From: Selenomonas sp. AB3002
GTDB lineage: Bacteria; Bacillota; Negativicutes; Selenomonadales; Selenomonadaceae
NCBI RefSeq assembly: GCF_000702545.1
Contig: NZ_JNIO01000002.1
Span: 558,001-622,000 of the forward strand
Direction of reading: 5' to 3'
Length of the DNA: 64,000 bases
Numbering within the stretch: position 1 is the stretch's first letter; the number at the start of each line of letters is the position of its first letter. Made by a program: the position numbers and the translations under genes. The notes under the pieces were generated by a model that searched no databases, was not told the DNA's origin, and saw only the letters and a list, made by a program, of their open reading frames with translations. Below are positions 1,511-59,156 of this stretch, piece by piece.

Positions 1511-2368
1511 ATGAAACATTTGGTCATCGTCCGGGGCGGCGGAGAGCTGGCTTCCGGGGTCATCCATTGCCTGTACAAGGCGGGGCTTAGGGTCATCATC
1601 CTGGAACAGGAGCAGCCCACCGCCACCCGCCGCAGAGTTTCCTTTGCCGATGCTATTTACCGGGGTGAGGCCACTGTGGAAAGGCTCACCTGCCATCTGG
1701 CTCAGAACGTAAAAGAAGCGAAGCAGAGGGTGAAGAAGGGCGAGCTCATCATGCTCTGCGACCCCAAAGGCGAGAGCATCAAAGAACTGAAGCCCCGGGT
1801 AGTGGTAGATGCCCTGCTGCGCCATGAAAATGTAGCAGGCACCAACCGTGAGATGGCTGACCACACGGTGGCTCTCGGCCCCGGCTTCTGCGCCGGGCGC
1901 GATGTGGATGTGGTGGTGGAAACCATGCGCGGCCACAACCTGGGCCGCCTCATATATGAAGGCTACTCCTACCGCGACCAGCAGAGCGACGGAGGCCTGG
2001 TAGGCGATCCGGCCAACCTTGAGCATCTGGTCTTTGCCCCAGCCTCTGGCAAGGTTAAGATCCTGCAGAATATCTCCATGTATGTGAAAAAAGGAGAGCC
2101 CCTGGCAGTCATCACCTCCAAGGGCAAGAAGACGGAGGTCTGTGCCACCATTGACGGCATGCTCCGCGGAGCCGTGCACAGCGGCCTCACGGTAGAAAAG
2201 GGGCAGAAGATTGCCGACATCCATCCCCACATGAGCCGGGAGGAATGCTTTGCCATCTCCGACAAAGCCCGCTGCATCGGCGGCTCCGTCCTCACCGCCA
2301 TCATGGCATGGGAAAGCCAGGACACAAAGAAAAGCAAGTTCCCCTTCAACCATATCAGCATCAATTAA
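1511..2368 (+). CDS. yqeB: YqeB-type selenium-dependent molybdenum hydroxylase accessory protein
   Basis: The 285-aa product starts at ATG 1511, eight bases after an AGAGGA ribosome site; the longer frame from 1460 has none. The N-terminus VIVRGGGELASGVIHCL is a Rossmann-like nucleotide fold typical of the EF2563/YqeB family, and a biotinyl/lipoyl-like hinge (FAPASGKVKILQNI, about residue 180) follows. Family members occur with selenium-dependent molybdenum hydroxylases (xanthine dehydrogenase-like enzymes) and are thought to help install the selenium or molybdenum cofactor. No hydroxylase subunit lies in this window, so the gene appears solitary. A clear terminator follows. Confidence 0.8.
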   Translation: MKHLVIVRGGGELASGVIHCLYKAGLRVIILEQEQPTATRRRVSFADAIYRGEATVERLTCHLAQNVKEAKQRVKKGELIMLCDPKGESIKELKPRVVVDALLRHENVAGTNREMADHTVALGPGFCAGRDVDVVVETMRGHNLGRLIYEGYSYRDQQSDGGLVGDPANLEHLVFAPASGKVKILQNISMYVKKGEPLAVITSKGKKTEVCATIDGMLRGAVHSGLTVEKGQKIADIHPHMSREECFAISDKARCIGGSVLTAIMAWESQDTKKSKFPFNHISIN

Positions 2369-2375
2369 AAGAACT

Positions 2376-2414
2376 AATAGGCCGCTGCCTGTACCTGGGC
2401 AGCGGCCTATTCCA
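2376..2414 (+). terminator. Terminator after yqeB
   Basis: 14-bp arms AATAGGCCGCTGCC / GGCAGCGGCCTATT around an 8-nt loop, just past the yqeB stop codon. Confidence 0.85.
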
Positions 2415-2494
2415 TTGGTATTTCGTTATCTGACGAATCCTTCATCGCACAATCCCTACCTTATGCAGGCATCTGTCCAGCTTCCTCGCTAAAC

Positions 2495-2905
2495 TCAGAT
2501 GAATGCATTGAAGATGGCTCCTGCCGGCGCGGTAGCAATGCCCATCCCTGCCATATAAGCACGGAAGACCTGCCCTGGCATTCCCTGAAGATCGAAATCA
2601 ATCTGAATGCGCGCAACGTCCAGCACTTTCTCCTCAATCAGCTGGTCACCGTCTACCTTCTGTACCAACAGGGAACCATTTGGCATGACATCTGCAAGGG
2701 TCATGGTACTAGCCGCAGATCCGCCTGACTCTGGCACTTCATCAGCTTTCTGTACCTCCGCCAGCAGATTTCCAAAAGTCTTGGAGTCTTCCTCCTTGTC
2801 TATTTCTGGAACTACTGGCCGGACAGCCTGCTGCTCACGGTTATAAGCCGCACTGATATTATTGAGATTTATGCTGCTGAGCCCGTTCAATGAACTAATA
2901 GTCAT
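2495..2905 (-). CDS. Small protein of unknown function under a flagellar-type promoter
   Basis: A 136-aa product starting at ATG 2905 with GGAGG ideally spaced upstream; the GTG three codons earlier overlaps the RBS and is unlikely. The N-terminus MTISSLNGLSSINLNNIS is Ser/Asn-rich, reminiscent of secreted flagellar axial or motility proteins that lack a signal peptide. The middle is acidic (IDKEEDSK) and the C-terminus hydrophobic (AYMAGMGIATAPAG). I do not recognise a family. The promoter at 2962-2988 matches the sigma-28 pattern found before both flgE genes, so a role in motility is likely but inferred. Confidence 0.65.
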   Translation of the reverse strand: MTISSLNGLSSINLNNISAAYNREQQAVRPVVPEIDKEEDSKTFGNLLAEVQKADEVPESGGSAASTMTLADVMPNGSLLVQKVDGDQLIEEKVLDVARIQIDFDLQGMPGQVFRAYMAGMGIATAPAGAIFNAFI

Positions 2906-2961
2906 CTTGCACACCTCCTTTCATCTATATGTCAGGAAGCATTCAGCCCTGCATACTATTA

Positions 2962-2988
2962 ATATCGTTTGATCAAGGGATTTTCTTA
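2962..2988 (-). promoter_or_regulatory. Sigma-28 (FliA/SigD)-type promoter
   Basis: Minus strand TAAG (2985-2988), exactly 15 bp, then AACGATAT (2962-2969). The known sigma-28 consensus is TAAA-N15-GCCGATAA/T. The same spacing and core occur upstream of both flgE genes. The predicted leader is about 50 nt. Confidence 0.65.
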
Positions 2989-3063
2989 AATGTTTTATGA
3001 AATTTTTTCATTAAAATTTCATTAGAACGTTAAAAAAATACTTTAAATCTGAATGAAAGTGCT

Positions 3064-3561
3064 TCATTCAAGCCAGTGAACCCGCTCCGGCTCATAGCGG
3101 TCAGGGCGTTCCTTTTCCTTCTTGGGATAGCCGAAGGGAATGACCGTAAAGGGCACCAGGCTGTCAGGCAGCTCCAGAGCCTCTGCCACTATCTTCATGC
3201 GTTCCTCCACAGGAGCAATCCCCAGCATCAGGCCGCCAAGTCCCAAATGGGTCAGCTCCAGCCAGATATTTTCCGTACAAATGGCACAATCAATATCCAG
3301 CATCTCAGGTGCAGGATTGCCTTCCTTCCGATAGCAGATAACCACAGCCGCCGGGGCCTTGCCTGCCGGCCAGGCATATTTGCTGGCCGTGCCAATCTTC
3401 TCCAGCACTTCCTTGTTTTCCACCACATAGAACTCCCAGGGGCGCTGGTTCATAGCCGTAGGAGCGGCCATAGCTGCCCTCAGCAGCTGCTCGATTTTCT
3501 CCTTTTCCACCGGCCTTTCCTCATAAGAACGAACGCTGGCACGTGCAAAGATTTCCTTCAT
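3064..3561 (-). CDS. Nitroreductase family protein (FMN oxidoreductase)
   Basis: 165 aa with GGAGG upstream of ATG 3561. It shows the nitroreductase layout: the SVRSYEERPVEKEKIEQLLRAA start (FMN phosphate contacts), the AAPTAMNQRPWEFYVV segment, and the C-terminal GYPKKEKERPDRYE signature. These enzymes use NAD(P)H and FMN to reduce nitroaromatics, quinones or flavins; the physiological substrate cannot be read here. Its length matches the short subfamily. It is transcribed alone, upstream of a convergently placed hairpin that ends the next gene. Confidence 0.85.
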   Translation of the reverse strand: MKEIFARASVRSYEERPVEKEKIEQLLRAAMAAPTAMNQRPWEFYVVENKEVLEKIGTASKYAWPAGKAPAAVVICYRKEGNPAPEMLDIDCAICTENIWLELTHLGLGGLMLGIAPVEERMKIVAEALELPDSLVPFTVIPFGYPKKEKERPDRYEPERVHWLE

Positions 3562-8731: not shown

Positions 8732-8869
8732 TACACGTATCCCGTCATCATTGGCCATGCTATTCCCCTGTCTCAGTTCCATGAATCTGAGCATGAGCCT
8801 TCAGCCAAGTGTATTGAAACATTTATAACGGAAAAGTATAACTCACCTTCGTGATGTCATCTCTTGCCG
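8680..8869 (-). ncRNA. Structured leader or small RNA (~190 nt) upstream of the BASS gene
   Basis: A promoter at 8876-8904 and a terminator at 8677-8731 bound this minus-strand unit. Inside, TTGGC/GCCAA and CATGCT/AGCATG arms stack into a long hairpin topped by CTCAG/CTGAG. The 5' part can pair AACGG with CCGTT. No RBS-supported frame is present. It could be a riboswitch with a terminator as expression platform for the BASS-panC-panD genes, or a free sRNA; the length is also that of 6S RNA. I could not match it to a known riboswitch by eye. Confidence 0.5.
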
Positions 8870-52582: not shown

Positions 52583-52776
52583 TCAAAACACCTCCACTTG
52601 TAATATTTTCAGGTAAGATAGAGATTTCTCTGTCTTAAAGACATACTGCATCCCTAACGATTTTTCAGAAATATTTTGCAAAAACTCAAACTTGCTAAGT
52701 TTTCCCTCTTCGCAATCCAAAGCATCTTCACGAACCCGGCGGTCAGCTATCGGTCCTATTATGCAGTCTACGTCAG
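52583..52776 (-). pseudogene. Truncated DUF3990-domain gene (C-terminal remnant)
   Basis: About 64 codons: VDCIIGPIADRRVREDALDCEEGKLSKFEFLQNIS ... QYVFKTEKSLSYLKI matches the C-terminal third of DUF3990 proteins (IGPxADDxV, G-x-LSxxEAL, QYCFHTEKAL). DUF3990 is related to ADP-ribosyltransferase toxins. The N-terminal two thirds, which would hold the NAD-binding region, are absent and replaced by a piece of flgE. Confidence 0.7.
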
Positions 52777-52829
52777 AGTTGGACTGTAAGCAGCGCTGGG
52801 TGATAATCATATCTGCAAATTCGTTGGCA
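52777..52829 (-). pseudogene. Short flgE-derived fragment fused to the DUF3990 remnant
   Basis: It encodes NEFADMIITQRCLQSNS, the invariant FlgE C-terminal motif (intact copies have QRGFQSNSK). The piece joins directly to the DUF3990 frame and abuts the higA stop codon. This is the second flgE fragment within 700 bp. Confidence 0.75.
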
Positions 52830-52838
52830 TGGCTGCAT

Positions 52839-53150
52839 TTATGCCGTGACAATGGAAACAGCCTGTCTGTCCAGCAGTTCCAGAAGACGGCTAGATGGTC
52901 CATTGGGTGTATTCCGACCCGATTCCCATGCTTCTATGGTTTTCTTGCTGACACAGAGGTATTTAGCAAGGACAGCCTGGGTTAGGTTGTTCTTCAAGCG
53001 AATGCTGCGCACCTCAGCACCGCTGAACTTGCGGGCAGGGGCAATGTTTATGGTTAGAGTTTCATGGGTAAGGTTAGCCCCATTATTTTCTTCATAATCA
53101 GCAATAAGTTCATTTAATGAACCAGCTATCATATCATAAGTCCTGCTCAT
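52839..53150 (-). CDS. higA: HigA-type antitoxin, XRE helix-turn-helix
   Basis: 103 aa. The C-terminal half is an XRE HTH: VRSIRLKNNLTQAVLAKYLCVSKKTIEAWESGRNTPNGPSSRLLELL. The N-terminal segment is the toxin-binding part. The ATG overlaps the higB stop by four bases, giving the toxin-first order typical of higBA. It would bind the palindrome in the higB promoter and repress the operon. Confidence 0.88.
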   Translation of the reverse strand: MSRTYDMIAGSLNELIADYEENNGANLTHETLTINIAPARKFSGAEVRSIRLKNNLTQAVLAKYLCVSKKTIEAWESGRNTPNGPSSRLLELLDRQAVSIVTA

Positions 53151-53607: not shown

Positions 53608-55155
53608 TTACCTCTTCATATTGATGACGGTCTCCAACATCTCGTCACCTACGGTGACAATCTTTGAATTAGACTGGAAGCCGCGCTGGGTGATGATCAT
53701 ATCTGCAAATTCGTTGGCGATGTCTACGTTGGACATTTCCAGAGCGGATGGCGTAATCTTCACGCCAAGATCGGTAGCAGTTTTTACGTTTGCTGCACCA
53801 GAGTTGTTAGAGGTCTGATACAGCGAACTGCCGGTCTTAGTGAGACCAGAAGCATTAGTGAACTGAGCAATAGCTACCTGTGCTTCTGCCTTCTGAACAC
53901 TGTTTGTGTAAGTTCCCATGATAACCCCGGAACTATCAATAGAAATGCTTTCGAGAGACCCCGCCGCATTGCCATCAGCATCGCCATTGATGGTATTCAT
54001 ACCAGCATACTGAGTCAAATCGCCTAATTCCAGACTTATGCTCTGTGGGGTCGAAGAGCCATTGGGAGCCGTATGCGTAACAGACAAAGAGCTTTTTTTG
54101 ACGCTGTCACCATCAAGCGCCCCTGGAGGTGTAGTGATAGTTACCTCCGAATTTGTATCAGCAACCAATGTTTCTGTTCCACTAAAAGTACCTTCCCTGA
54201 TAATACCGTCATAATCAAAAGTTATCGTTGTAGATCCCAAAGTATAAGTGGACGTAGACCCATCGGCTTCATTCACAGTCGCTTCTGGCAAGGACATTAC
54301 CCACGCCGTGGCTTTTTTAGTTACAGGATTCCCTTCCTCATTAGTATAAGTTAGGTCTGCTACAACACTTTTCTCAAACAAAACAGTAGATGTATGTTCT
54401 ACCCCTAGGCTATCATAATAAGTCCAGGCTGTAGTCTGAGGCATAGAACGACCAATAACATACCTTCCTGAATTAACAGTCATTTTACTGCCATCACTAA
54501 AATACAAAGTCACTGGCTGCTCAGATGAAGCCCCAATGTATTTTCCTGCAGTGGTTTCTGTATGTGTAGTGCCATCAGAAGGCTTAACAAAAGAATACGA
54601 TGTAATTACAGGCACATCAGCATCAAGATTATTTGTATATGTAGCTGTGCTTGTTGCTTCTGCCGCCATGGTCTGTCCTAGCTTTACAACAATATCCGTT
54701 GTTGGGCCCGTAGTACTAAGGGCACCACTATCATCCGCCATCCATCCCTGCACTTTAAGACCACTGCCAGGCATTACATAGTTGCCATCAGCATCAAATT
54801 CAAAGTCACCATTGCGAGTATAGTATGTCTGTTTGTTGTCTTTTACCACAAAAAGTCCATTACCTGAGATACACAAATCTGTGTTCTTACCTGTTGACTG
54901 CACGGAACCATCGCTAAAAAGCAAATCTACGCTAGCCACACCAGAACCCAATCCTACCTGCTTGGCATTTACACCGCCTTTTGTTCCAGTAGGTGCTGCA
55001 GCACCGCTCATAGTCTGATTCAAGGTATCAGCAAAAGTCACGCGGCTGGACTTGAACCCTGTGGTATTGACATTAGAAATGTTGTTGCCAATGACATCCA
55101 TTCTCGTCTGGTGGTTCTTGAGGCCGGATACGCCTGAGAAGAGCGAACGCATCAT
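53608..55155 (-). CDS. flgE: Flagellar hook protein FlgE, paralog 1
   Basis: 515 aa. N-terminus MMRSLFSGVSGLKNHQTRMDVIGNNISNVNTTGFKS and C-terminus SNVDIANEFADMIITQRGFQSNSK ... VGDEMLETVINMKR are the conserved hook-protein ends that form the tube core. The middle (about 130-430) is the variable exposed domain. FlgE polymerises into the hook joining the basal body to the filament. Ends are almost identical to paralog 2 while the middles differ strongly. Promoter at 55284-55310 is sigma-28 type. Confidence 0.93.
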   Translation of the reverse strand: MMRSLFSGVSGLKNHQTRMDVIGNNISNVNTTGFKSSRVTFADTLNQTMSGAAAPTGTKGGVNAKQVGLGSGVASVDLLFSDGSVQSTGKNTDLCISGNGLFVVKDNKQTYYTRNGDFEFDADGNYVMPGSGLKVQGWMADDSGALSTTGPTTDIVVKLGQTMAAEATSTATYTNNLDADVPVITSYSFVKPSDGTTHTETTAGKYIGASSEQPVTLYFSDGSKMTVNSGRYVIGRSMPQTTAWTYYDSLGVEHTSTVLFEKSVVADLTYTNEEGNPVTKKATAWVMSLPEATVNEADGSTSTYTLGSTTITFDYDGIIREGTFSGTETLVADTNSEVTITTPPGALDGDSVKKSSLSVTHTAPNGSSTPQSISLELGDLTQYAGMNTINGDADGNAAGSLESISIDSSGVIMGTYTNSVQKAEAQVAIAQFTNASGLTKTGSSLYQTSNNSGAANVKTATDLGVKITPSALEMSNVDIANEFADMIITQRGFQSNSKIVTVGDEMLETVINMKR

Positions 55156-55283
55156 AGTAAATCACATCTCCTTATTATGTATAGATAGGCAGCTCCTTGC
55201 GACGTTCCCTGTCGGCGTGGCCTGACGGCCCTGTTCTTCCCTGTTTATCACATGATTTATAACATACTTATGTTACGACATAT

Positions 55284-55310
55284 ATATCGTATAAAACTTA
55301 GAAAAACTTA
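55284..55310 (-). promoter_or_regulatory. Sigma-28-type promoter of flgE paralog 1
   Basis: Minus strand TAAG (55307-55310), exactly 15 bp, TACGATAT (55284-55291). The 120-nt leader contains AAGGAGATG near the start and a second GGAG further up. Confidence 0.7.
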
Positions 55311-55435
55311 AATATTTTTATGTTAAAAATTTTCAACATAAAAATCACCACGTAAAAATACATAAATTACAGTATAATGGGCCCCTTGTCAAGACCACAT
55401 CCTGAAATTTTAAGAGTGTCAGTGAACAGAGTATC

Positions 55436-56344
55436 CTACGCAGCGAAGCAGCCAAAATAGAATTCGTTAGGAACCTTGTAGCCTAAAGCCTCGTGGGGAC
55501 GTATATTGTTGTAATCATCCACGTATTGGTTGATCAGGCGGCGAAGCTCTCTTGGCGTACGGTATTCGTTAGGATAGAGCTGCTCCGTTTTGAGGCTGCG
55601 AAACCAGCGTTCAATCATGATGTTGTCAGCCCAGCGGCTCCTGCCATCCATGCTTTGACGGATGTTAAGGCTACGAAGCAGGTCTTTGTAGTCATCACTG
55701 GTAAACTGGCTGCCCTGGTCTGAATTGATGATGGCTGGAACGCCACATGCCTTAACGGTTTCCTTTACGGCATAAATGACAGATTCTGCTTCCAGACTAT
55801 CTGAAAGATAATGGCCGACCAGCCGCCGGCTATACCAATCAATTATTGCAGTCAGATACATGTGTCCATGTGGCATCGGAATATAGGTGATGTCAATGGA
55901 CCACACCTGGTTGGGGAAAGACACATTATAATTGCGTAACAGATAAGGCACGATAGACTCCTTGAAATTGCGCTTGGACAGATTAGGTTTAGGGTAAACG
56001 GCATAGATGCCCATCTTCAGCATAAGTCGCCGTACTGTCTTGCGACAGGCTGAAAAACCTTCTTCCTGCAGTTTGGCAACAATCTTACGAGAGCCGAGAT
56101 AAGGACACCTGGTATGCCAGTAGTCGATACGTGCCATTAAGGCTTCATCAAGCTTGACAGCAGCTTTATCTGGTTCAGTGGGCGTGTAATATAGGCTTGA
56201 GCGGTTTAGTCCCAGCAGCTCGCACTGACGGCGTATGGAAAGACCATTACCCTTTCGGATCATATTCCGGGATTCGTGGGATGGTCTCCCCAGCCTGGCG
56301 AAAGCAGTCCTGAAGAAAGTCGCGTTCAAGCGTAAGCTGACCAA
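55436..56344 (-). CDS. IS3-family transposase OrfB (integrase domain)
   Basis: 302 aa frame. The HTH_21 segment (RRQCELLGLNRSSLYY) leads into an rve integrase core: VWSIDITYIPMPHGHMYLTAIIDWYSRRLVG (first Asp), INSDQGSQFTS (second Asp) and NIMIERWFRSLKTEQLYPNEY (Glu). The first codons before about 56250 overlap orfA. OrfAB is expected from a -1 frameshift; an AAAAAG run at 56367-56374 is a candidate slippery site. Confidence 0.93.
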   Translation of the reverse strand: MVSLRLNATFFRTAFARLGRPSHESRNMIRKGNGLSIRRQCELLGLNRSSLYYTPTEPDKAAVKLDEALMARIDYWHTRCPYLGSRKIVAKLQEEGFSACRKTVRRLMLKMGIYAVYPKPNLSKRNFKESIVPYLLRNYNVSFPNQVWSIDITYIPMPHGHMYLTAIIDWYSRRLVGHYLSDSLEAESVIYAVKETVKACGVPAIINSDQGSQFTSDDYKDLLRSLNIRQSMDGRSRWADNIMIERWFRSLKTEQLYPNEYRTPRELRRLINQYVDDYNNIRPHEALGYKVPNEFYFGCFAA

Positions 56345-56600
56345 TGGTCTTTAGCATTTGGTCATTCTTTTTCTTCAGGTCGTCCTCCTTCCTCTGAACG
56401 GCCTTACGCTCAGAGTCTGCGCCAAAGGCGAGATAGGCATTCTGCAAGAATTCTTGCTTCCATTTTCTGACCATGTTTGGATTCAGGCCGTTTTCAGAGC
56501 AGATGACATTGAATTCCTTGTCGCCTTGAAGAATTGACAAAACAATCTTGGTCTTGAATTCAGCAGTGTACTTTTTTCTTGGCATAATGGCAACCTCCAA
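56247..56600 (-). CDS. IS3-family transposase OrfA (HTH)
   Basis: 117 aa. MPRKKYTAEFKTKIVLSILQGDKEFNVICSENGLNPNMVRKWKQEFL is the HTH_Tnp_1 start, followed by a leucine-rich coiled coil (DDLKKKNDQMLKTIGQLTLERDFL). The real start is MPRKK at about 56585. It overlaps orfB by roughly 100 bp in the -1 frame. Confidence 0.92.
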   Translation of the reverse strand: MEVAIMPRKKYTAEFKTKIVLSILQGDKEFNVICSENGLNPNMVRKWKQEFLQNAYLAFGADSERKAVQRKEDDLKKKNDQMLKTIGQLTLERDFLQDCFRQAGETIPRIPEYDPKG

Positions 56601-56794
56601 TTTTCGTTACCTATACTATATCATGCACTCTTAAAATTTTCAGTACTGGTCTGAATTCATGGGCCCATTATACAGTGATTTTTCCTTTTAAAAATCACCT
56701 AATTAATGTTAAAGAATAAACATAATTTCTTTGATTAAAATAACATATAAAATTAACTTTAAAACTGTTAGAATTATATCGAGGTGATGTGATA

Positions 56795-56992
56795 ATGGCA
56801 GAGAAATTATTGATTACCAAAAAGAACGCCAGAGGCACCGATGGCTACAAGGTTTTTTCGGTACGTTTGAAGGAAGATACGGTGGATGAAATAGGGCGAC
56901 TTTCGGATGTCACGGGGAGGACTAGGAACGAGCTAATCGGCTTGCTACTTGACTTCGCGCTGGCTAACAGCGAGGTTGTCACTGAGAAATAA
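56795..56992 (+). CDS. Small ribbon-helix-helix-like protein
   Basis: 65 aa from ATG 56795, eight bases after GAGGTGA. KVFSVRLKEDTVDEIGRLSDVTGRTRNELIGLLLDFAL follows the beta-strand then two-helix pattern of CopG/MetJ-type RHH repressors. It lies between the IS3 element and flgE paralog 2 and has its own terminator. It could regulate flgE or have belonged to a lost toxin-antitoxin pair; neither is shown. Confidence 0.65.
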   Translation: MAEKLLITKKNARGTDGYKVFSVRLKEDTVDEIGRLSDVTGRTRNELIGLLLDFALANSEVVTEK

Positions 56993-57007
56993 GATTCAGA
57001 TAATCAA

Positions 57008-57048
57008 AAAAACGAGGCTATTCTGACTGTCAGAATAAGCCTCGTTTT
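57008..57048 (+). terminator. Terminator after the RHH gene
   Basis: Arms AAAACGAGGCTATTCTGAC / GTCAGAATAAGCCTCGTTTTT with almost no loop. Confidence 0.9.
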
Positions 57049-57106
57049 TATGTTATAAATTATGTTTAATTTTTATGTTTTTTCAAAAAACAATAGTTGT
57101 AATCAT

Positions 57107-57133
57107 TAAGTTCAAAAGACGTTTTTCCGATAT
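57107..57133 (+). promoter_or_regulatory. Sigma-28-type promoter of flgE paralog 2
   Basis: TAAG (57107-57110), exactly 15 bp, TCCGATAT (57126-57133), the closest of the three to the known consensus. The 110-nt leader has ACGGA and AGGAG motifs that could bind CsrA, which is an inference. Confidence 0.75.
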
Positions 57134-57248
57134 AAAAATTGAAAAGAAAACACGGATGAAAATCATGTTAAATCAAGCATGAATTACAGGCAAAAATGAC
57201 AGGGAAAGTCGGCTCGCCTAATGACTATAAAAAAGGAGACGATATATT

Positions 57249-59156
57249 ATGATGCGCTCACTGTTTTCCGGCGTTTCCGGCCTTAAGAACCACCAGACCC
57301 GCATGGATGTCATAGGCAACAACATTTCAAACGTGAACACCACCGGCTTCAAGTCAGGCCGGGTGAACTTTGTGGACACCCTGAATCAGACCATCAGTGC
57401 GGCTACTGGTGGTACTGACAACCTGGGTGGCACCAACCCCAAGCAAATCGGCCTCGGTTCCTCTGTCAGCAGCATTGATACCCTCTTCACCGATGGCTCC
57501 GTGCAATCCACGGGCAAGAATACTGACCTCTGTCTCTCTGGCAACGCCCTTTTCGTAATCAAGGAAGGCAACCAGACTTACTACACCCGCAACGGCGCTT
57601 TCGAGTTTGACGGGGACGGCAACTATGTGCTGCCGGGCAGCGGCTTCAAGGTACAAGGTTGGAACGGGACAGACGGTGCTCTCGACACCAGCACTGCGGT
57701 AACTGATATCAATGTGCAGGTAGGAAAGAGCATGGCAGCTTCCGCTACCGTCATGGCCAATTATGCCAACAACCTTAACGCAGCTGCACTTACCATTGCC
57801 TCCATGGATGGCGGTACAGCAGAAGGCACACTTACAGCTTCCGCCGCCGATAAAGTCACCCTTACCATAAACGGTGTCGAATATCTTGCTACTTCTGGAA
57901 CTTTTTCTACCAAAGAAACGTATACTGTATCAGCGGCATATACTGCTAGTGCCACATCTATGAAAGTCAAGGATTCAGATGGCAATGAACAAACTATTAC
58001 CGTTGATGCCAATACGACTGCTGTTGCTGCCGATACGGCTGTTACTTCTGTCACAGGCGGCACCTCTACTGACTTCACAAAAACCAAGGCTTCAGCTAGC
58101 AATACAGTCATCATAAATGACGGCACCAACGACTATGAGATTACCAGCGGTACTTTCTATAGCGAAAGAACCTACACCTTCTCCAAGGCAGTAGCCTCCG
58201 GTGACACCACAATTACCTTGGAAGATTCTGAAGGGAATACGCAGACCGTAGCCCTTAAAACGCCCGCTACCAGTACTACAGCTGCCAGTACTGCTGCAAC
58301 CTATACTGGCGGCACTACTGTTACTCCCAAAACTGCCAGCATAACTAACCCCATTACTATGACGATGAGTGACGGCACCAAGATAAGCCAGACCAGCGGC
58401 ACCTTCTGTGAGGGTGAGAGTCTTCCTATCACTACTACTTTAACCATCTATGATACTTTGGGCAACGTGCATAGTCTGCCTGTATATTTCACAAAAACAG
58501 CTATTGACAGCACCAGCGGTAACTCTTGGACTGTATCCCTTGCTACAAACGGAAGCGGCACTGTAACCCTTTCCGAAGCCGATGGAACTACCACGACTGT
58601 GACTATGTCAGATACGACAGTAGATTTCACTACAATGGGCAAATATGATACCGACGCCACCAGAAATCTCGGCGGCAGAACCAGCGTCCTTACCCTTACC
58701 AATGGTTCACGCGGCACGCAGACTGTAACCCTTGATTTCGCTTCCCTCACCCAGTTCGCTGGCAACAACACCGTCAACGGCACCACTGATGGTTATGCCG
58801 CTGGTACGCTGGAGAGCATCTCCATTGACACCACCGGCACCATCTACGGCACCTATACCAACGGTGTCCGGCAGGCAGAGGCTCAGGTAGCTGTGGCTCA
58901 GTTCACCAATGCCGCAGGCCTCACCAAGACCGGCAGTTCCCTCTATCAGGCCTCCAGCAACTCCGGTACCCCCAATGTGAAAACCACTACCGACTTAGGC
59001 GTAAAGATTACGCCGTCTGCTCTGGAACTCTCCAACGTGGATATCGCCAACGAATTCGCAGACATGATCATCACCCAGCGCGGCTTCCAGTCCAACTCCA
59101 AGATGATTACCGTAGGCGACGAAATGCTTGAGACCGTCATCAATATGAAGAGATAA
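57249..59156 (+). CDS. flgE: Flagellar hook protein FlgE, paralog 2 (with internal duplications)
   Basis: 635 aa, 120 longer than paralog 1. The conserved ends are the same: MMRSLFSGVSGLKNHQ and FQSNSKMITVGDEMLETVINMKR. In the middle, two tandem segments of about 80 residues recur: TINGVEYLATSGTFSTKETYT ... DSDGNEQTITV ... SVTGGT and IINDGTNDYEITSGTFYSERTYT ... DSEGNTQTVAL ... TYTGGT, with a third partial copy (MSDGTKISQTSGTF). This explains the greater length. Thr/Ser-rich, so potentially glycosylated. Own sigma-28 promoter. Confidence 0.93.
   Translation: MMRSLFSGVSGLKNHQTRMDVIGNNISNVNTTGFKSGRVNFVDTLNQTISAATGGTDNLGGTNPKQIGLGSSVSSIDTLFTDGSVQSTGKNTDLCLSGNALFVIKEGNQTYYTRNGAFEFDGDGNYVLPGSGFKVQGWNGTDGALDTSTAVTDINVQVGKSMAASATVMANYANNLNAAALTIASMDGGTAEGTLTASAADKVTLTINGVEYLATSGTFSTKETYTVSAAYTASATSMKVKDSDGNEQTITVDANTTAVAADTAVTSVTGGTSTDFTKTKASASNTVIINDGTNDYEITSGTFYSERTYTFSKAVASGDTTITLEDSEGNTQTVALKTPATSTTAASTAATYTGGTTVTPKTASITNPITMTMSDGTKISQTSGTFCEGESLPITTTLTIYDTLGNVHSLPVYFTKTAIDSTSGNSWTVSLATNGSGTVTLSEADGTTTTVTMSDTTVDFTTMGKYDTDATRNLGGRTSVLTLTNGSRGTQTVTLDFASLTQFAGNNTVNGTTDGYAAGTLESISIDTTGTIYGTYTNGVRQAEAQVAVAQFTNAAGLTKTGSSLYQASSNSGTPNVKTTTDLGVKITPSALELSNVDIANEFADMIITQRGFQSNSKMITVGDEMLETVINMKR

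Follow-up and report, generated by a model that had tools for sequence, protein, structure and literature searches.

The window, that is the whole stretch of 64,000 nucleotides analysed here, carries on its minus strand a gene of 136 codons that lies directly behind a sigma-28-type promoter and encodes a member of an unnamed Selenomonadaceae protein family with a conserved FxxxL motif close to the N-terminus. Judged from its sequence, the product is probably a sigma-28-dependent substrate of the rod/hook type that passes the flagellar export gate and acts outside the cell. Control of the gene by sigma-28 (FliA) is strongly indicated by the sequence comparisons described below, and we infer export of the 136-residue protein as well as its route from the signals in the chain. 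The gene and its flanks comprise the following features:

2498-2905, minus strand: coding sequence of the 136-residue protein, from open reading frame and translation, with the ATG at 2905
2495-2497, minus strand: stop codon of the 136-codon gene
2914-2921, minus strand: strong Shine-Dalgarno sequence AAAGGAGG, read from the sequence
2962-2989, minus strand: sigma-28-type promoter with the -35 element TTAAG (2985-2989) and the -10 element CGATAT (2962-2967)
2376-2411, minus strand: terminator-like hairpin downstream of the gene (one found versus 0.8 in shuffles, weak if taken alone)

The product has a computed mass of 14.5 kDa and a pI of 4.3. A GTG at 2914 would start a longer ORF, and it overlaps with the Shine-Dalgarno sequence of the 136-codon gene. 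CGATA and the ATG are 57 nt apart, a distance that suits a promoter role. When region 2300-3100 was scanned for sigma-70-like promoters none was found (shuffles 1.2). Membership in an operon was rejected, since the next gene past the hairpin is convergent, and the 136-codon gene seems to form a transcription unit by itself. Flagellar genes do not adjoin it in the window. Its place 3' of a nitroreductase gene is kept in four of five congeneric relatives, G005 being the exception, and in another genus several relatives of the gene are preceded by a gene that we recognised as presumably guaA. Gene and promoter thus change place together, and little can be learned about function from the neighbors. 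For five congeneric orthologs dN/dS ranged from 0.15 to 0.27 (10 pairs; one of the five is cut by a contig end, and in several pairs synonymous change is near saturation). Four orthologs of the protein show 65-72% identity. On these sequence comparisons the gene is under purifying selection.

We aligned the upstream region from the window with those of seven homologs, together representing two genera; a ninth homolog from a third genus (G012) was left out of this alignment. In the eight regions the -10 core CGATA is invariant, TTNA is also kept, and the GGAGG of the Shine-Dalgarno sequence shows no variation. The G012 homolog has no good site (score 7.5 on the matrix described below).

The promoter of the 136-codon gene, TTAAG-N17-CGATAT, has the same form as the sites before both flgE genes of the window:

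53608-55155, minus strand: flgE paralog 1, sigma-28-type promoter at 55284-55310
57249-59156, plus strand: flgE paralog 2, sigma-28-type promoter at 57107-57133

The first-pass annotation had drawn attention to this pattern at 2962-2988 and at the two flgE promoters. All three sites were confirmed: TAAGN17CGATAT has exactly three matches in the window, 2962-2988 on the minus strand, 55284-55310 on the minus strand and 57107-57133 on the plus strand. Allowing up to one mismatch, we found eight matches, whereas 100 shuffles averaged 1.67 and never exceeded 6. The pattern is thus unevenly spread, and the link to sigma-28 drawn in that annotation came through the sequence half of its refutation test. 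Both flgE paralogs (53608-59156) stand alone and have near-identical ends; between them, at 55436-56600, we noticed by eye an insertion-sequence-like transposase gene pair. A further ORF at 52583-52903, adjoining what by eye is a toxin-antitoxin-like gene pair, contains the stretch FADMIITQRCLQSNSDV, which resembles the C-terminus of FlgE and may be what is left of an additional flgE copy.

A scan of the whole genome, which had been proposed together with the pattern, yielded 14 matches in 3.67 Mb versus eight for the reversed pattern. Seven of them belong to a flagellin gene, both flgE genes, an FlgF/G-type rod gene, the 136-codon gene, a second member of the same protein family and a 341-codon ORF. 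The other seven look like chance, as they fall within long ORFs or next to genes that by eye resemble transposases. Because about half of the genome-wide matches are attributable to chance, the site alone would not be proof. The form TTAAGN16-17CGATA gave 31 matches in the genome (16 for the reversed control), 30 of which we inspected. Half of these 30 are located upstream of flagellar genes or of genes of the unnamed family: seven flagellins (by eye), two flgE, one rod gene, FlgM, YjfB, a gene at the fliK position and two family members. Further sites precede a DUF6033 protein, a DUF4885 protein and four ORFs without a convincing family; the rest are two doublets (four sites) before a 46-residue ORF and three sites without a gene, and another two sites lie at a transposase-like gene or remnant. 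Sigma-28-type sites in this genome therefore precede hook and rod genes besides flagellins. For the fliK-position gene, which lies upstream of flgD, no Pfam match was obtained within the first 494 residues.

Several loci of these scans deserve mention. The DUF6033 and DUF4885 genes and two of the ORFs without a convincing family (L195, L223, L218 and L219) are candidate members of the regulon. The doublets (G000:C8:508154-508308 and C8:653451-653606; L214-L217) are paralogs of each other, and in each of the two loci a spacing of about 130 nt separates the sigma-28-type sites. The 46-residue ORF behind them, seen by eye, has a hydrophobic C-terminus and is followed by a hairpin; from the sequence it is possible that these ORFs are sigma-28-driven membrane microproteins. 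Among the 14 matches of the first pattern, two sites (L010 and L011; G000:C7:274200-274226 and 280081-280107) are identical. One of them lies 36 nt before an IS66-type transposase-like ORF, which may be chance or a captured promoter.

A search with the single protein detected homologs in 9 of 100 genomes, the own genome counted. With a profile built from the nine sequences (A2), 81 of 189 Selenomonadaceae genomes proved to contain a member; among 200 genomes of the class 32 did, every one of them belonging to the Selenomonadaceae. The same restriction was seen with a profile of eighty sequences (A4), by which 94 of 300 class genomes were positive, every one Selenomonadaceae, with up to six copies per genome. 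From the 117 matches of A2 we extracted 113 (G142, G146, G186 and G189 were left out) and dropped five, namely one with an internal stop, three fragments shorter than 98 residues and one without upstream sequence. The remaining 108 members were reduced to 80 at less than 85% identity, a few truncated members still being included. The second member in the same genome (168 residues, E 1.7e-11 with A4) was found both by the promoter pattern and by the profile, and it sits directly behind a match to the pattern. At six loci (L072, L073, L105, L132, L134 and L135) a co-directional gene of 200-240 residues follows the family member within at most 112 nt. These followers fall into two types that recur, one MDISISKLHE-like and the other MDVxxI-like, and are possible operon partners.

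Flagellin is encoded in 183 of the 189 Selenomonadaceae genomes, including all 81 that are positive with A2, and the six genomes lacking it contain no family member. With A4, 94 of 109 Selenomonadaceae in the class sample were positive and the six flagellin-less genomes were all found among the 15 negatives; the 109 are those among the genomes listed, and the 186 unlisted class genomes, which rank behind the first entries from other families, are assumed to hold no more. The association between family member and flagellin reaches p = 2.5e-6 when counted by genomes and p = 0.009 when counted by the 25 genera sampled, the genus being the fairer unit for this test. In the class sample no family member was detected in nine genomes that do have flagellin, and the protein family is therefore not essential to a flagellum.

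In order to score the promoters across the family we used a two-box matrix trained on 40 flagellin upstream regions, 38 from relatives and two from the own genome, of which 36 entered the final matrix; the unnamed family was excluded from the training. The resulting matrix corresponds approximately to NNTTAAG[T/G]-N13-14-NNCGATAWW, and the gene in the window scores 21.2. Considering 250 nt upstream of each family member, a score of at least 14 was found for 60 of 108 members (44 of the 80 non-redundant ones), compared to 23 of 2160 Markov-resampled sequences and 6 of 322 other ORFs of the same loci, a control that was called mechanically with spurious ORFs included; one or more genes resembling flagellin are among these 322, as are others that may depend on sigma-28. 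The best-scoring ORF among these 322 looks like a flagellin. Most of the sites (49 of 60) begin 36-70 nt ahead of the start codon. Scores below 10 were obtained for 22 of the 108 members, the G012 homolog included; misplaced starts may be behind part of these. The genome does contain a FliA gene (256.9 bits, curated cut-off 189.6). Transcribed alone from a sigma-28 promoter, the 136-codon gene would be made when flagellin is made.

The sequence of the product can be divided into the following elements:

2879-2902, minus strand, codons 2-9: hydrophobic residues at the very N-terminus, which may be export signal 1
2762-2776, minus strand, codons 44-48: FGNLL, the FxxxL of this protein, putative gate-recognition motif (export signal 2)
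2621-2707, minus strand, codons 67-95: stretch of highest conservation, predicted to form a three-strand beta-meander
2498-2539, minus strand, codons 123-136: tail ending in AGAIFNAFI, an ending type common to a subset of the family

The Ser/Asn-rich start seen in the first-pass annotation is indeed there, as MTISSLNGLSSINLNNIS. Family proteins are about 100-160 residues long, mostly acidic and of a loose, Ser/Ala/Thr/Gly-rich composition, with a mean identity of about 20% in the alignment of the 80 members. Most members share one architecture, in which the FxxxL, at about residue 33, is followed by a loose linker; then come three strands predicted to form a beta-meander, and a tail that varies. 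The conserved core T.T.V..DGS....G..IS falls in the predicted beta-meander. AlphaFold, run twice with a different lead sequence each time, placed three strands at this core; mean pLDDT was 55 in both models and, in the first, 76-82 in the blocks covering 71-100, and outside the core the models are helical or disordered at low confidence. A loose [LIV][FY]...[IVA] ending occurs in 26 of the 80 members.

The F and the L of the FxxxL are conserved columns, each present in 68 of 80 members, with a median position of 33. Of the 80 members, 69 have FxxxPhi at residues 22-55; among 218 other ORFs, again a mechanically called set with some spurious entries, 60 have it. After shuffling of the N-termini (500 times) the mean was 13% and the maximum 24%. 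The motif is weak in any one protein and gains its weight from being conserved across the family. Two other properties were dropped as indicators. Residues 2-8 contain two or more of A/I/L/V/M/F in 79 of 80 members; since 164 of the 218 control ORFs show the same, the hydrophobic start is not diagnostic of export. Cys is depleted in the family (4 in 14,084 residues, versus 1.48% in the 218 ORFs). This was rejected as proof of export, because two proteins of the own genome that we recognised as presumably the cytosolic FliG and FliJ are also free of Cys.

Early substrates of Salmonella are reported to dock at FlhB via a gate-recognition motif, 36-FLTLL-40 in FlgD, and also to need a hydrophobic extreme N-terminus, 2-SIAV-5 in FlgD; between this start signal and the gate-recognition motif at least 19 residues are needed, 24 being best (PMC8983047). 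An additional C-terminal export signal is described for FlgE, FlgC and FlgG, and is reported to be absent from FlgD (PMC10936197). By its position in the sequence, the FxxxPhi of the family is placed like a FlgD-type gate-recognition motif, and the hydrophobic start is compatible with 2-SIAV-5 without being diagnostic. We found FxxxPhi at residues 31-44 in eight of nine rod/hook-type proteins of the own genome, namely FliE (F31AEYL), FlgD (F42LQLL), the two FlgE (F41ADTL and F41VDTL), FlgJ (F38EAVL), two rod proteins (F41QDLL and F44EPML) and the fliK-position protein (F35DEAL). It is absent from the FlgC-like protein, two flagellins, FliD and FlaG of this genome, and FlgM carries it twice. 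Two such motifs, F31KALF and F35ASQL, are present in the second family member. The FxxxL, which the first-pass annotation had not named, thereby strengthens, on our inference from sequence, the earlier idea of a flagellar export substrate.

The family shares FxxxPhi, with a start region before it, with the rod/hook-type substrates FlgD, FliE, FlgE and FlgJ, but it is small, has a single beta-meander, and these four are encoded by separate genes here. FlaG is a small late flagellar protein; identity with it was rejected, as no match to PF03646 was obtained and a separate FlaG (E 1.7e-23) is encoded next to FliD in this genome; unlike the family, that FlaG is without FxxxPhi. FlgM (PF04316) and YjfB (PF14070) are likewise small and have the same type of sigma-28-type site, but both are separate genes, and the family matches neither in Pfam; in particular, no PF04316 match supports identity with the anti-sigma factor FlgM. 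That the product has no known family, as first suggested, is borne out by Pfam and NCBIfam. When the 80 members were scanned against both libraries there was no consistent match, only weak scattered ones, none of them shared by more than two members: ArlS_N twice, FlgH once per library, YabA once (E 9.9e-6), and single weak matches to MAP7, AATF, FdhE_N, phnS2, comE, PlzR and a type III translocon protein. We read these as noise. A profile search of PDB sequences returned only two matches, with E values of 1.1 and 1.5, and a fold search of the PDB with the first structure model had no match at E ≤0.001. In a literature search, mainly of openly available papers, no publication on this Selenomonadaceae protein family was found. 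The nearest parallel by behavior is the Campylobacter jejuni Feds (flagellar co-expressed determinants) and FspA, which are reported to be secreted in a flagellum-dependent manner, the Feds also requiring sigma-28 for production (PMC5223770). This comparison is by description, concerns another phylum and claims no homology.

The promoter and the FxxxL would also fit a regulator or chaperone of flagellar export that is made under sigma-28 and stays in the cytoplasm, where its FxxxL binds FlhB or another component without the protein itself being exported. FlgM-, FliT- and FlgN-type regulators are small and linked to sigma-28 in other bacteria, the FlgM of this genome also has an FxxxL, and cytosolic flagellar proteins here likewise lack Cys. 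However, the loose Ser/Ala/Thr/Gly-rich composition and the up to six copies per genome fit substrates better, and there is no Pfam match to FlgM, FlaG, FliS, FliT or FlgN. We consider this explanation unlikely. Somewhat less probable still is an accessory of motility or chemotaxis that is coexpressed through sigma-28 and unrelated to the export apparatus, e.g. a motor brake or a signalling adaptor. Sigma-28 regulons include such accessory genes, and the beta-meander is conserved above most of the N-terminus; such a role leaves unexplained, however, the conserved FxxxL shared with eight of nine rod/hook-type proteins. That promoter match and small ORF coincide by chance is very improbable in view of the conserved site, the purifying selection on the frame and the recurrence of the motif across the family, even if about half of the genome-wide matches are random by the reversed-pattern control.

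If the product is an export substrate, the following course can be proposed. The 136-codon gene would be transcribed alone by sigma-28 (FliA), timed with flagellin. The FxxxL at residues 44-48 would dock in the pocket of FlhB, after which the hydrophobic extreme N-terminus would open the gate, and the largely disordered chain would then travel along the flagellar channel. Once exported, the protein would use its beta-meander and tail at the hook or filament or further out, being either a minor structural or assembly part or a released protein. Under the enterobacterial scheme a sigma-28 gene would not usually carry signals of the rod/hook type. The combination is less odd here than in Salmonella, because the flgE genes and the fliK-position gene also carry sigma-28-type sites.

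For the family as a whole, the sequence data leave about even chances that this Selenomonadaceae group, with up to six members per genome, joins sigma-28 timing with signals for the FlhB gate and serves as a set of hook or filament customisers or of secreted proteins. If this is true, a whole unnamed family could be assigned to the flagellar regulon from sequence alone, with a family-wide prediction that names two residues per protein, one gate and one sigma factor. Rod/hook-type export signals would then occur on genes of the filament era, against a simple early/late scheme, and further proteins could leave via flagella in a family that includes rumen selenomonads. Should export fail, the family would still be a new sigma-28-type gene set.

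Two observations in the window lie apart from the flagellar genes. The segments 547-649 and 1341-1478 form a repeated element, 37 nt of which are identical and 63 nt 95% identical, with about 700 nt between the copies in which no gene was recognised. At 8765-8863 on the minus strand the Rfam 'pan' motif (RF01749) was detected with 37.8 bits, slightly above the threshold of 36.2.
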